Below the pieces are notes generated by a model. That model saw nothing but the letters and a program-made list of their open reading frames with translations. It searched no databases and was not told the origin of the DNA. A DNA stretch of 64,000 nt from Providencia vermicola (GTDB lineage: Bacteria > Pseudomonadota > Gammaproteobacteria > Enterobacterales > Enterobacteriaceae): the NCBI RefSeq assembly GCF_020381325.1, contig NZ_JAGSPI010000002.1, forward strand, positions 124,001 through 188,000. The letters run 5' to 3'. Positions 1,549-47,195 of this stretch are shown here, piece by piece (position 1 is the stretch's first letter; every line of letters begins with the position of its first letter). The position numbers were made by a program, and so were the translations under genes.

Positions 1549-1655
1549 CACGTCATTTTCTCGTTTATGTACTGAATTAATACCACTTCAGCAAAAATAT
1601 GCGTATTATCCAAGACTGAAGTGAATATATGGTCTCAATCGTTTTGGAGTTAGCT

Positions 1656-2312
1656 ATGAGTGCAACCGCGCTTGGCATGATAATCTTCGCTTATCTTTGT
1701 GGATCAGTTTCCAGTGCAATACTGATCTGCCGTATAGCGAGACTACCCGATCCCCGTCAACACGGCTCTGGTAACCCTGGTGCAACTAACGTCTTACGCG
1801 TTGGAGGTAAAGCCGCCGCCGCCGCAGTACTACTTTGCGACGTTTTAAAAGGGATGATCCCCGTTTGGCTGGCTTATTACCTCAATGTACAACCATTCTA
1901 TCTTGGCTTTGTCGCAATTGCAGCCTGCCTTGGGCATATTTATCCTGTTTTCTTTCATTTCAAAGGGGGAAAAGGGGTAGCAACTGCATTCGGTTCTATC
2001 GCAGCTATTGGCTGGGATCTTTCAGGATTAGTCGCAGGAACATGGTTACTCACTGTCCTACTCAGTGGTTATTCATCTCTTGGGGCGATTGTTAGTGCAC
2101 TCTTAGCCCCCTTTTACGTTTGGTGGTTTAAGCCTGAATTTACCTTTCCTGTCGCCATGTTATCGTGCTTAGTGTTAGTTCGTCACCACGGTAATATTCA
2201 ACGTCTATGGCGCGGGCAAGAAAGTCGTATTTGGCAGAAATTGAAAAACAAAAAGCAAAAAACGAACAAAGAGATTGCTCAAGAAACCAAAGAACAAGAA
2301 CTCGACGACTAA
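1656..2312 (+). CDS. plsY: Acyl-phosphate:glycerol-3-phosphate acyltransferase
   Basis: Inner-membrane enzyme of phospholipid synthesis that transfers an acyl group from acyl-phosphate (made by PlsX) to glycerol-3-phosphate. Family motifs are present: SGNPGATN in the first cytoplasmic loop, [10 protein letters not shown] in the second, and several hydrophobic helices. The start was set at the ATG at 1656 because it is preceded by a good ribosome site (TTGGAGT at 1644-1650) and matches the usual MSAxAxGMI start; an in-frame ATG at 1629 would add nine unsupported residues. The lysine/glutamate-rich C-terminal tail is somewhat longer than in E. coli. A repeat-bracketed terminator follows. Confidence 0.94.
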
Positions 2313-2335: not shown

Positions 2336-2514
2336 AAGAGCTGAAATCAGCTCTTAGGTTGTTGACAAAGCAGGATAAAAGCGTGGTTTTTCCTGCTTTG
2401 TGTTATCAGCCGAAAATCAATAAATTGATTTTCCTCGTCTATTTTCAAAACCTATCCAACCTGCCGCCAAACCTAATCGGCTTGTCAGCAGTCTGAGAGC
2501 TGAAAATCAGCTCT
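2336..2514 (+). repeat. Structured intergenic repeat, copy 1, bracketed by duplicated hairpins
   Basis: A core of about 140 bp (2356-2495) is nearly identical, over its first 100 bases, to the reverse complement of 20666-20805. It forms hairpins: ACAAAGCAGGA/TCCTGCTTTGT, GAAAATCAAT-AA-ATTGATTTTC, and a third, decayed one near 2458-2494. The core is bracketed by two near-copies of a local hairpin: AAGAGCTGAAATCAGCTCTT (2336-2355) and AGAGCTGAAAATCAGCTCT (2496-2514). The downstream copy is followed by a run of seven T residues and is the functional-looking terminator of plsY. Both copies of the whole unit span 179 bp. No open frame in it looks coding. Confidence 0.85.
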
Positions 2515-20646: not shown

Positions 20647-20825
20647 AAGCCACTGTTAAGTGGCTCAGACTGCTGATAAACCGATTCGGCTTATCAGCAG
20701 TCTGGATTGGTTTTGAAAATAGACGAGGAAAATCAATTCATTGATTTTCGGCTGATAACACAAAGCAGGAAAAACCACGCTTTTATCCTGCTTTGTCAAC
20801 AACCTAAGCCACGGTTAAGTGGCTT
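20647..20825 (-). repeat. Structured intergenic repeat, copy 2, bracketed by duplicated hairpins
   Basis: Reverse-complement copy of 2336-2514; both units are 179 bp. The first 100 bases of the core differ by about one base, in a hairpin loop. Here the third hairpin is intact: AGACTGCTGATAA pairs with TTATCAGCAGTCT (20667-20703), with an inner CCG/CGG. The bracketing hairpins are different from copy 1: AAGCCACGGTTAAGTGGCTT (20806-20825) and GCCACTGTTAAGTGGC (20649-20664). They are near-copies of each other and differ by one base. The unit lies between iutA and the binding-protein gene. Confidence 0.85.
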
Positions 20826-20844: not shown

Positions 20845-23046
20845 TTAGAACGTCACACTGTAGTTAAGTGCAAAGGTTCTACCGCGCCCTTTATAGTCAT
20901 ATAGGTTTGGTGCACCGTATTTCGGGCTATATAAACCTTGTGCGCGCTGCCCCCAAATGGTGGAGTAGTTTTTATCCAGTAAGTTTTCAACTGCAAAACT
21001 CACTTTACCAACAGGTAACATGTAACTACCTAATAAATCAACGGTATTATAGCCATCCAGTTTTTTCCCCGCAGCATCAGTTAAGTTAAATGTTTGCTGG
21101 CTCTGTAAGCGGAGCGACCAATCATTTGGCTCCCAACCCACATAAGCGTTAACTTTAGATGGGCTGGCAAAGTCCACGCTCCATTTTTCCCAGCTACCAT
21201 TAACTTTGGTTTCCGATTTTTGCAGGTTGAAGTTACTCCCCACATTCCAGTCGGAGTCGTCAAAGAAGTAATCAATAGCACCTTCTACCCCATAAATACG
21301 GCGCTTATCGGTCTTCATGTAAATGGTCATGTCATCTTTATTAATACCGTAGCTTCTATCAGATAAGGAATAATAGGTAGCAACTTGTGTGCGCAGGTTC
21401 TCACCTGTATAGCGCCAACCTAACTCAAAGGAGTTAACTTTGATCCCTTTGACTTTAGTATCATTGATATTCACGCTATTTTCTAAATTCCAATGGCCAT
21501 TCGCATCTGGAGTCGGGGAATATTTACCTGTCCCGTAGTATTTCGCAATATCAGGGATTTCAAAACCTTGGGAGAAATTAAACCACGTTTGTTGCTCTTC
21601 AGTTAGGTTAACCAACAACCCTGCATTAAACAGTAAATTGTTATAATCAGTTTTCCCTCCAGGTACAGCGTCTGCAGATTTACCATTGCCGTTAGCTATC
21701 GCTTCTTGCTGCGCATAACCAACAAAATCATCCACTTTGTTTTCAGTATATTGATAACGCACACCACCGCTTAAAGTGAACATCGGCGTGATGTCATAGC
21801 TGCTTTGTAAGAATGTCGCCATATTTGTGGTGGTATAGCTTGGGTAGCGGCCAATTTGGAACGCTTTAGTGAGATCCATTCCCCCTGATTCTTTTGCACG
21901 ATCCAAATCAAAAAACATTTGGTTTGCACGGAATTGCTCGTGCTCCGCATCCACACCATAAGTTAACGTCAATTCATCAAGGGGCTGGCTATTAAATGTT
22001 AGCTTAGTGCCATAGAAATTGGTTTGTTGGTCAGAGGAACTGATACTCGAAACCTCTTTTTCTGTTAACGTTGGGAACGGATAAAACTTTTGTGATTCAT
22101 CACGGTAGTAGACCTGAGCAACAAAATCTTGCCCAAACATATCTGCATTTGAATACTGTAAATTAAGCAAGTTACGCTCAGTGCCTGGTAAGCGGTCTGA
22201 ACTTAATTTACCGCTGTTATAAGCCTTCCCATCCCCCTTCACTGCAGAAAAATCTTTGCCTAAATATAGGCCATGCTTACCATCAGACTCACTTTTATAA
22301 TGCTGATAGGTCGCTTGAATCTGTTGTGTTTCATTTATTTTTACGGTGCCTGATGCCATCACATCGAGACGGTCGGAAAACTGTAACCCTGTTTGGGTGT
22401 TATCAATATTAATCGCGTCGCCTTTACCATCATACCAGCCACCATAACGTTGATAGGCGACAGAAATACGACCATGCGCGTTTTCATTACCACCGCTCAC
22501 TGCTGCCGCGACATTTTCATCATGATCTTTCCCGTTATTAAAACCTGTTTTCCCACCTAATTGCAGGGAAACTTGTTTTTCTTCTTGGCCTTTTTTTGTC
22601 ACGATATTAATTAAACCACCGCTACTGCCGCCACCGTACATCGCAGTCGCACCAGAAATGACTTCAATATGGTTAATATTAAAAGGATCAATCGAATCTA
22701 ACTGGCGACTGTCACTACGTGAGGAGTTAAGGCGTACCCCGTCCACCATCACTATCATTGAGCGACCACGCATATTCATACCGTAGTTTGTACGGCCTTG
22801 ACCGCTCACGCTCATTCCTGGAATTAACTGCGATAAAATATCCTTTAACTCTTTCCCGCCCTCTGCTTGCTGCTCAATTTCGGCGTTATCAATGACCCAA
22901 GTGGTTTGTGCCATTTCTGAAACTGATTTGTAGCCACGAGTTGCAGAGACTGTAATTTTTTCTTCTTTGTTATCAGCGGCCAATACCGAGGGGGATATAA
23001 AAGGTAGCAAACAAGGGGAGAGAATAAAAAGGTGCTTTATTTTCAT
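20845..23046 (-). CDS. iutA: TonB-dependent ferric hydroxamate receptor, IutA (aerobactin) type
   Basis: Outer-membrane 22-strand barrel that imports a ferric siderophore using TonB energy. The mature part closely follows IutA: AEMAQTTWVIDNAEIEQQ-like TonB box and plug start, GGKELKDILSQLIPGM, YGMNMRGR, VDGVRLNSSRSDSRQLDSIDPFN, SGGLINIVTKKGQ, and the C-terminal YDYKGRGRTFALNYSVTF ending in Phe. I chose the ATG at 23046, which gives a proper signal peptide (MKIKHLFILSPCLLPF...LAA); an upstream in-frame start at 23112 would put another hydrophobic stretch in front. No iucABCD biosynthesis genes are in the window, so it may take up aerobactin made by others. A Fur-like box lies upstream. Confidence 0.88.
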   Translation of the reverse strand: MKIKHLFILSPCLLPFISPSVLAADNKEEKITVSATRGYKSVSEMAQTTWVIDNAEIEQQAEGGKELKDILSQLIPGMSVSGQGRTNYGMNMRGRSMIVMVDGVRLNSSRSDSRQLDSIDPFNINHIEVISGATAMYGGGSSGGLINIVTKKGQEEKQVSLQLGGKTGFNNGKDHDENVAAAVSGGNENAHGRISVAYQRYGGWYDGKGDAINIDNTQTGLQFSDRLDVMASGTVKINETQQIQATYQHYKSESDGKHGLYLGKDFSAVKGDGKAYNSGKLSSDRLPGTERNLLNLQYSNADMFGQDFVAQVYYRDESQKFYPFPTLTEKEVSSISSSDQQTNFYGTKLTFNSQPLDELTLTYGVDAEHEQFRANQMFFDLDRAKESGGMDLTKAFQIGRYPSYTTTNMATFLQSSYDITPMFTLSGGVRYQYTENKVDDFVGYAQQEAIANGNGKSADAVPGGKTDYNNLLFNAGLLVNLTEEQQTWFNFSQGFEIPDIAKYYGTGKYSPTPDANGHWNLENSVNINDTKVKGIKVNSFELGWRYTGENLRTQVATYYSLSDRSYGINKDDMTIYMKTDKRRIYGVEGAIDYFFDDSDWNVGSNFNLQKSETKVNGSWEKWSVDFASPSKVNAYVGWEPNDWSLRLQSQQTFNLTDAAGKKLDGYNTVDLLGSYMLPVGKVSFAVENLLDKNYSTIWGQRAQGLYSPKYGAPNLYDYKGRGRTFALNYSVTF

Positions 23047-23183
23047 TGAGTTAAAACCTTTAAATATAATTATTGATACCATCGTTATCAGCGCCAGAAC
23101 CAATAACGACACATGATTAAATCACCGCTAACTATATTGCGGGAAAATTATTCGCAATAGTAACTGATAATCACGTTAGATAT

Positions 23184-40134: not shown

Positions 40135-41838
40135 ATGAAAACCATCTCACGGCAAGCGTATGCGGATATGTTTGGGCCAACCCAAGGCGACCGTGTACGC
40201 CTAGCAGATACAGAACTGTTTTTAGAAATTGAAAAAGACTTCACCACCTATGGGGAAGAAGTCAAATTTGGTGGCGGTAAAGTCATTCGCGACGGCATGG
40301 GGCAAAGCCAAGTCACCAGCGATAAATGTGTTGATGTGCTGATCACTAACGCTATTATTTTAGACCATTGGGGCATTGTTAAAGCTGATATCGGTATCAA
40401 AAATGGCCGTATTGCAGGTATTGGTAAAGCGGGTAACCCTGATGTACAGCCGAATGTGGATATCGTAGTCGGCCCTGGTACAGAAGTCGTCGCGGGTGAA
40501 GGCAAAATTGTCACCGCAGGTGGTGTCGATACCCATATTCATTTTATTTGCCCACAGCAAGCTGAAGAAGGCTTAGTTTCTGGTGTCACCACCTTTATTG
40601 GTGGCGGGACAGGCCCTGTCGCGGGTACTAACGCCACAACGGTCACACCAGGTATTTGGAATATGTACCGCATGTTAGAGGCCGTGGACGAGCTGCCAAT
40701 TAACGTGGGGCTATTTGGTAAAGGGTGTGTGAGCCAGCCTGAAGCCATTCGTGAGCAAGTTACCGCAGGCGCAATTGGCCTGAAAATTCACGAAGACTGG
40801 GGCGCAACCCCGATGGCAATCCACAACTGCTTGAATGTTGCCGATGAAATGGACGTGCAAGTGGCAATTCACTCCGACACCTTAAACGAAGGCGGCTTCT
40901 ACGAAGAAACAGTAAAAGCCATCGGCGGTCGTGTGATCCACGTATTCCATACCGAGGGAGCCGGTGGCGGCCATGCTCCTGACGTGATCAAATCCGTAGG
41001 GGAACCGAATATTTTACCTGCCTCAACCAACCCGACAATGCCGTACACCATTAATACAGTGGACGAACATTTGGATATGTTGATGGTGTGTCATCACCTT
41101 GACCCGTCCATTCCTGAGGATGTGGCCTTTGCTGAGTCACGTATTCGCCGTGAAACCATTGCCGCAGAAGACATTTTGCATGATATGGGCGCAATTTCCG
41201 TGATGTCCTCCGATTCCCAAGCCATGGGGCGCGTTGGCGAAGTGATTATGCGCACATGGCAATGTGCCCACAAAATGAAATTACAACGCGGCATAATGGA
41301 AGGCGATACCCCAGACAGCGATAACAACCGTATTAAGCGCTACGTGGCGAAATACACGATAAACCCTGCGTTAGCCCATGGTATTGCTCATGAAGTAGGG
41401 TCGATAGAGAAAGGCAAATTAGCCGATATTATCCTGTGGGACCCCGCCTTTTTTGGCATAAAACCTGCGCTTATCATGAAAGGTGGCCTTGTGGCGTATG
41501 CGCCAATGGGGGATATCAACGCCGCCATTCCAACGCCGCAACCTGTGCATTACCGCCCAATGTATGGGGCGCTCGGTAAAGCAAAGTACCAAACCTCGAT
41601 GATTTTTATGTCAAAAGCAGGGATTGAGGCGGGAGTGCCCGAAAAGCTTGGCTTACAAAGCTTAATCGGCCGTGTTGAGGGTTGCCGCAATATCAGTAAG
41701 GCCTCAATGGTGCACAACAGCTATGTGCCGCATATTGAGCTAGACCCTCAAACCTATATTGTTAAAGCCGATGGCGTGCCGCTGGTGTGTGAACCAGCCA
41801 CTGAATTGCCAATGGCACAACGTTACTTTTTATTCTGA
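40135..41838 (+). CDS. ureC: Urease alpha (catalytic) subunit
   Basis: Nickel amidohydrolase that hydrolyses urea to ammonia and carbamate in the cytoplasm. The 567 residues equal the Klebsiella enzyme, so its numbering applies: Ni ligands His134 and His136 (DTHIHF), carbamylated Lys217 (GLKIHEDW), His246 (HSDTLNE), His272 ([12 protein letters not shown]), Asp360 ([13 protein letters not shown]), and the mobile-flap MVCHHLD. All catalytic residues are intact, so the enzyme should be active. Confidence 0.98.
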
Positions 41839-46125: not shown

Positions 46126-47195
46126 AGCTGAGTCTCCAACCATGCTAACCATGCGTCCATACCATCCCCTTGTGTTGCAGAAACCTTAATCACTTGGATG
46201 TTTGGATTGATGTGTTTGGCATTAGCAATGCAGGCGTCCACGTCAAAATGCAGGTACGGTAGTAAGTCGATTTTATTGAGCAACATAATGTCTGCCGCGG
46301 CAAACATATGCGGGTATTTTAAGGGTTTGTCTTCCCCTTCGGTCACGGACAAAACAGCCACTTTGTGGCGCTCGCCTAAATCAAAGCTTGCAGGGCACAC
46401 TAGGTTTCCCACATTTTCGATGAATAACAAGCTGTTATCATCTAAACCTAAGCGTGAGACCGCATCGTGTATCATCTGCGCATCCAAGTGGCAGCCTTTA
46501 CCTGTGTTCACTTGAATAGCAGGTACCCCCGTTTCGCGAATACGCTGGGCATCGTTGGTGGTTTGTTGGTCGCCTTCCACCACCGCACAATTGATTTTAT
46601 CGCGCAAGCGAAGCAAGGTTTCCGTTAATAAGGTGGTTTTCCCAGAACCTGGGCTAGAAACGAGATTTAACGCTAAAATATTTTTTTCTGCAAATGCCTC
46701 ACGGTTATGTTCCGCTAAGTGATTGTTTTTATCTAAAACGTCCATCTCAATTTGCAGCATACGTTTTTGGCTGATCCCTGGCGCATGTGTGCCAGCTTCA
46801 CCCTGTCCGTAATCCAAATCATGGTGTTCACCCACAGGTTTAAAGCTATTTTCCGCCATGGCGTAAACGTGTTTATGCTTATGTTTGTGTTTCTGTTTTT
46901 TGGCTTTACCCTCAATAGGTGCGGGGTCATATTGATGATAGTGATTATGCACATCGCCTTGATGGTAATAGTGGTGATGAATAATGACGGTTTGGCCTTG
47001 GTTTTCATGATCATGATGGTCGTGATCGTGGTGGTGATCGTGTCCATGATGATGGTCATGTGCATGTTCATGATCGTGATGATGATCATGGCCGTGATGG
47101 TGGTCATGGTCGTGATGATGGTCATGGTGATGATGACTGTGCTCATCACCCTCGATTCTGCGCTCTCCCGATGCGCATCCACACGTACTACACAT
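46116..47195 (-). CDS. hypB: Hydrogenase nickel-insertion GTPase HypB with a long His-rich region
   Basis: A 359-residue protein, against about 290 in E. coli. The N-terminal high-affinity nickel motif is MCSTCGCA (Cys2, Cys5, Cys7). Residues about 19-112 hold some 40 histidines, including a near-exact 16-residue tandem duplication (30-45 and 46-61) and a KHKHKHKH run. The GTPase domain follows, with [26 protein letters not shown], the metal site [10 protein letters not shown], and NKIDLLPY. The long tract suggests nickel storage as in Bradyrhizobium-type HypB (nickelin). The start at 47195 places the CxxCxC motif at the N-terminus. It is separated from hypA by about 90 bp. Confidence 0.94.

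Follow-up and report, generated by a model that had tools for sequence, protein, structure and literature searches.

A YPAL-like miniature element of Providencia duplicates terminator hairpins and has a probable IS1182-family partner

Among the small repeats of enterobacteria, YPAL/RU-2 of Yersinia is given as ~168 bp (De Gregorio 2006, via the portions consulted of PMC2229807, PMC2759123, PMC2267715 and PMC2847712), with 37–144 copies in 10 of the 11 Yersinia listed in PMC2847712 and duplications of 3–26 bp at targets that span or lie beside dyad symmetry (excerpts of PMC2229807). The RU-2 sequence is printed in PMC2759123, and YPAL* of 130–136 bp is listed in PMC2267715, both seen as excerpts. 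Insertion into hairpins is also described for the IS1182 family. In the sections of PMC5678879 available to us, IS1272 of Staphylococcus replaces stem-loops without duplication, and whole-stem-loop duplication is drawn as hypothetical pathway b in Fig. 13; in those of PMC4923244, partial deletion accompanies TnSha1/IS1272 insertion into hairpins, of which several are terminators. According to the same parts of both articles, Siguier et al. reported that some IS1182 members target palindromes.

Here we describe a YPAL-like element of Providencia that duplicates a terminator hairpin. Rho-independent terminators are reportedly named as targets in the YPAL description. Precedent exists for the target habit; what is added is whole-hairpin duplication in quantity and a link between this type of repeat and the IS1182 group. 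Among the literature matches listed, no link between YPAL and IS1182 and no whole-hairpin duplication by an IS1182 member was found, and earlier mention in the 2006 YPAL work, ISfinder or Siguier is possible.

Anatomy, affiliation and distribution of the element

The window, that is, the whole 64,000-nt stretch of Providencia vermicola DNA analysed, contains the element twice, on opposite strands. The original prediction of a core common to 2.3 and 20.7 kb, flanked by near-copied hairpins, holds at both sites, where the core belongs to an element of 141 bp. The hairpin flanking copy 2 differs from that flanking copy 1. The features are as follows:

1629–2312, plus strand: gene upstream of copy 1, 227 aa, which we take to be the acyltransferase PlsY; its terminator is the target
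2337–2354, plus strand: left copy of the target hairpin of copy 1 (target duplication), AGAGCTGAAATCAGCTCT, 18 bp, loop one A shorter
2355–2495, plus strand: miniature element, copy 1, 141 bp; family ends GAGGTTGTTGACAAAG (here TAGG...) and TTTGTCAGCAGTCTG (here CTTGTCAGCAGTCTG)
2365–2401, plus strand: subterminal hairpin of the left end, AAAGCAGG..CCTGCTTT, with covarying pairs across the family
2412–2433, plus strand: central hairpin, GAAAATCAAT..ATTGATTTTC
2461–2491, plus strand: subterminal hairpin of the right end (limits set by eye)
2496–2514, plus strand: right copy of the target hairpin of copy 1, AGAGCTGAAAATCAGCTCT, a 19-bp near-copy that retains the T run following it
20648–20665, no strand assigned: low-coordinate target hairpin of copy 2, AGCCACTGTTAAGTGGCT, 18 bp
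20666–20806, minus strand: miniature element, copy 2
20807–20824, no strand assigned: high-coordinate target hairpin of copy 2, AGCCACGGTTAAGTGGCT, 18 bp

A terminal repeat followed by a subterminal hairpin is a layout common to IS and MITE ends. Across 93 aligned MITE copies, positions 18–42 pair as C-G in 40 and T-A in 39 (broken in 13), positions 19–41 as G-C in 62 and A-T in 28, and positions 120–126 as A-T in 52 and C-G in 35 (broken in 6); these raw counts of covarying changes probably reflect clade-linked, and hence non-independent, events. An Rfam search of the element at gathering thresholds returned no match. Elsewhere in the window, 40284–40570 on the minus strand matches the 5' ureB small RNA in Rfam (RF02514, 106.6 bits); this region may be a urease gene, with the match reflecting coding conservation. 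An ATG/GTG-rich repeat array at 47001–47153, with a spacing of mostly 12 bases, might be a histidine/aspartate-rich tract on the minus strand.

The family, initially unrecognised, can be placed by its ends. Both termini of YPAL/RU-2, CAGACTGCTGACAAACC and CTTTGTCAATAACCTCA, are present in the element when compared by eye with the RU-2 sequence in the part of PMC2759123 consulted. Against that sequence, the right end is identical over 17 bases in copies of the type found in the source genome (G000), over 16 bases in the 93-copy consensus and at 16 of 17 in window copy 1 (by eye); the left end agrees at 15 of 16 positions in the consensus and 14 of 16 in window copy 1 (by eye). As in the YPAL/RU-2 descriptions available to us, the element is intergenic, multi-copy and structured, shares both ends and has variable duplications at or beside dyad symmetry. 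It differs from them in size (141 versus ~168 bp), in an interior unlike the printed RU-2 (by eye), in duplication of the whole hairpin and in the partner IS proposed below. Because length and interior depart from YPAL proper, we file the element on sequence grounds as YPAL-like, with YPAL* compared by listed length only. It resembles ERIC as a small enterobacterial intergenic MITE-like repeat, and the contrast with ERIC drawn in the original prediction stands: ERIC duplicates TA according to the excerpted PMC2759123, and the duplications here are 18–31 bp.

The original prediction had proposed a search of the complete genome and of other Providencia genomes. The element occupies 26 places in G000 (40 of 47 candidates scored; of 42 listed matches, 16 were the self-complementary part on the other strand). 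All genus genomes but G007 (23 of 24) contain core matches, with the most (69) in G014. This multi-copy interspersed repeat is a mobile element. The phage and E. coli collections gave no match to it at the limits used, and short end queries in plasmids gave weak matches, one of which is a Providencia MITE.

Beyond the genus, the exact 16-base right end is present in 8 of the 295 genomes sampled from the order, and the reversed control in none. In one of them (G233, 12 matches), each of the nine contigs fetched breaks off within the element, a pattern expected for a collapsed multi-copy IS; by eye, a hairpin clearly adjoins the element in eight of them and less clearly in L208. Related MITEs (L226–L228, two from Klebsiella and one from P. 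alcalifaciens) lie between hairpin near-copies (by eye), and in a Proteus mirabilis copy (L229) the hairpin is confined to the left side (by eye). The Klebsiella MITEs L227 (LR134132.1) and L226 (NZ_CP079141.1) have the central hairpin GAAAATCAATAAATTGATTTTC in common with the Providencia element. A ~2.3-Mb genome of the same order (G229) carries a YPAL-like element of ~150 bp with the end CTTTGTTAATAACCTG beside hairpins (L219), which suggests a wider range of YPAL-like elements.

Duplication of the target hairpin

Empty sites show what the element inserts into. Genome G018 lacks the element at the copy-1 site and has one AGAGCTGAAAATCAGCTCT, i.e., the longer-loop form; at the copy-2 site, it again lacks the element and has one AGCCACGGTTAAGTGGCT. 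None of the 23 other genus genomes carries the element at the copy-1 site (≤3 mismatches in the ends allowed), and of 11 relatives with the copy-2 flank, ten have no element at that site. The remaining one, G009, holds a truncated element at the copy-2 terminator (L179, C6, near 2957428) that is absent from the closer relative G018, reflecting independent insertion or loss. This comparison covers the two window sites among the 26 G000 copies. Together with empty sites on plasmids (see below), the single hairpins in G018 bear out the proposal that the element enters a terminator stem-loop and duplicates its target.

Duplication was then scored in 95 copies, i.e., 96 loci with both ends recognisable (≤5 mismatches in total) minus the chimera L060 described below, with the element bounded as GAGG...TCTG. 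Places with identical flanks were counted once. G000 contributes 25 rows, its 26th place (L026) having failed the end filter together with several loci of other genomes; a few come from each of the other genomes, and G014 weighs heavily in the sample, with 40 stretches chosen from 45 end pairs plus unpaired ends and core-match loci. A duplication score of at least 12 was reached by 79 of the 95 copies, compared with 9 of 8930 mismatched left/right flank pairs. The duplicates are 18–31 bp long, near-identical (mismatch-free in 48 of the 79) and different from copy to copy. Window copy 1 belongs to the 16 low scorers, since one of its hairpins has one loop A fewer; in 11 or 12 of the 16, the two flanks can be recognised by eye as one hairpin altered by indels or base changes. 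A single fixed hairpin pair, or a lack of duplicated hairpins, had been named at the outset as evidence against terminator-targeted insertion. Neither is the pattern found, yet the 16 low scores include ~4 copies with no recognisable pair by eye (L025, L043, L063 and one of the two L077 copies).

All 79 duplications contain a hairpin by a script stem score. By two automatic stem measures, the centre of the duplication coincides exactly with the hairpin dyad in 68 or 69 of the 79; in the scan that gave the duplication scores, it lies within 1 bp of the dyad in 77. The two stem measures mis-set some stems, and the stem span was taken from a separate, later measure. Over the outer seven symmetric positions, mean pairing is 6.34 at the true register and 1.3–2.1 when shifted. 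Duplications are longer where the outermost G-C pairs lie further apart (r = 0.61, p = 2e-9, n = 79), and in 71 of the 79 the length equals this G-C span plus 1–4 nt per side. Of the eight exceptions, seven have a helix extending past the duplication, which counts against a pure stem-foot rule, and one (L103) has an uneven offset. The first base is A and the last T in 75 of the 79. Given this bias and the seven helices that outrun the duplication, a base preference acts too.

The targets look like terminators. In copy 1, the first hairpin begins 24 bases past the stop of the PlsY-like frame, and the right hairpin is likely the working terminator of that gene because it keeps the T run. In copy 2, 20 bases separate the hairpin at 20807–20824 from the stop of frame 20845–23112 on the minus strand, which presumably encodes a TonB-receptor-like protein. 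At 59 of the 79 sites there are at least six T in the nine bases at the right end or at least six A at the left, against a background of 3.3% and 3.4% of 9-mers; 20 sites have neither run. With crude reading frames, 24 of the 25 G000 copies have a predicted stop codon pointing towards the element at a distance of 18–113 bp. The target hairpins differ between copies and look unrelated in sequence (by eye).

A probable IS1182-family partner

A chimeric locus in G014, L060, joins the end CAGACTGCTGACAAAG and the start of a transposase frame to the MITE right end. As the hairpins on its two sides differ, the likeliest reading is a fusion of one IS copy with one MITE copy, which counts for an IS–MITE link in the most match-rich genus genome. 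Searches with the 46-aa frame start found nothing in Pfam and, in NCBIfam, a weak IS1182 match (E = 0.16).

End pairing in four genomes found no full-length partner (for G000, only one seemingly unpaired match was entered). At E values up to 1e-10, the NCBIfam IS1182 transposase model NF033551 matches 19 loci in 4 of the 24 genus genomes. The ends described here occur only at the G004 loci, which hold two copies, both broken, with hairpin duplications present. Two results count against a partner that moves the element: G000 lacks any IS1182 transposase match up to E = 1e-10, and no genus genome searched was seen to hold the MITE together with an intact partner.

A plasmid search with the query piece gave 1515 matching records, of which 1498 are at <60% identity. 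We compiled IS copies from nine of 40 listed plasmid records, with the further IS copies there and five genome-contig loci, and retained the 22 with a left end found after removing repeated places and the second strand of L150; L142 (58% identity, Clostridia bin) and L151 (an E. coli plasmid stretch) were left uncounted. These elements are ~1.6 kb long, and 17 of the 22, at 14 distinct sites, are flanked by a perfect hairpin duplication of 16–28 bp. Their usual left end is identical to the MITE right end CAGACTGCTGACAAA at 15 of 15 positions. Two scanned transposases contain the domains DUF772, DDE_Tnp_1_6 and DDE_Tnp_1; against the IS1182 model, whose cut-off is 270 bits, they reach 490 and 514. 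Example elements are annotated only as 'IS1182 family transposase' (WP_136135613.1, WP_277696614.1). The plasmid elements share terminal repeats, subterminal hairpins and hairpin duplication with the MITE and differ in being ~1.6 kb and autonomous in appearance. Empty sites were also found here: the flank, hairpin included, of an IS copy on a Klebsiella pneumoniae IncC plasmid matches 749 records, and the three of these that were read, each from an IncC plasmid, carry one hairpin only. For another IS copy, an empty site is provided by a plasmid of Providencia heimbachae and one of Moellerella.

Several observations run against this partnership. The left ends of MITE and IS coincide at only 12 of 16 positions (by eye), 5 of the 22 IS copies have no matched hairpin pair, and, by eye, neither a duplication nor a hairpin is evident at two other IS1182 members (L198, L199), whose ends are uncertain. 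Some mismatched pairs record recombination between copies. In NZ_CP120531.1, two IS copies of one plasmid (L190, L191) have swapped hairpins, and the related plasmid NZ_CP096333.1 keeps a matched pair (L194), so recombination between IS copies explains the mixture; the same may apply to L141 (Serratia), with two different hairpins, and to the MITE copy L025, with no recognisable pair. L196 (Salmonella) has a right end that adjoins another IS copy. Loop flipping was considered for the inverted hairpin pair of L146 (Salmonella) and rejected, as the flanks are also inverted over the 80 bases compared, indicating rearrangement.

Judged from shared termini, ~1.6-kb IS1182-family insertion sequences are the probable movers of the element. 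Like IS1272/TnSha1 as described in the excerpts of PMC5678879 and PMC4923244, the partner belongs to the IS1182 family and the target is a hairpin or terminator without a sequence motif; unlike there, where the stem-loop is deleted or replaced without duplication, it is duplicated here, an outcome that matches the hypothetical pathway b drawn for IS1272 in the consulted part of PMC5678879.

Mechanism, alternatives and implications

In our judgement, the element is probably a YPAL/RU-2-type MITE moved in trans by an IS1182-family DDE transposase, with the inverted repeat of a terminator as target. The inverted repeat of an intrinsic terminator would be recognised by structure or symmetry, with no fixed sequence; upon extrusion, DDE joining would occur at the two dyad-related stem feet, and gap repair would leave a whole stem-loop on each side. 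The A run would stay with one hairpin copy and the T run with the other, so termination is probably kept and insertion may be nearly harmless.

The bias for A and T at the ends of 75 of the 79 duplications and the cut inside the helix in seven would also be expected if a two-fold symmetric transposase measured palindromic B-form DNA, without extrusion, and cut symmetrically at A/T ~8–15 bp from the dyad; we hold this doubtful, since duplication length varies over 16–31 bp and follows the stem span, a moderate correlation, and the hairpins seem unrelated in sequence by eye. The terminator-like runs, far above background at 59 of 79 sites, would fit a target that is a single-stranded hairpin, formed during termination or lagging-strand synthesis, in place of a duplex cruciform. 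We regard this as unlikely: 20 of the 79 sites have neither run, a second-strand cut at the other foot would also be required, and terminators may simply be the commonest strong palindromes. That the element carries or captures hairpins, the alternative raised in the original prediction, or that its flanks are converted to match after insertion, is highly improbable, for although some pairs differ by paired changes (L091 and L109, by eye), empty sites hold the same single hairpin and the copies carry different local ones, which favours target duplication.

Returning to insertion by an IS1182-family transposase, we tentatively propose a DDE branch that recognises folded hairpins, binding its own two subterminal hairpins and the target terminator alike and reading the cuts from the stem feet. 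If this is true, it would constitute the stem-loop-duplicating pathway that is only drawn as a possibility for IS1272 in the sections of PMC5678879 available to us, and terminators would be a general landing site for an IS and MITE family extending from Enterobacterales to Vibrionaceae. The analysis names a probable transposase for YPAL-type repeats and provides many natural insertions with a whole hairpin as the duplication, making structure-directed transposition testable on defined targets. It also suggests a route by which mobile DNA spreads between genes while leaving termination intact.
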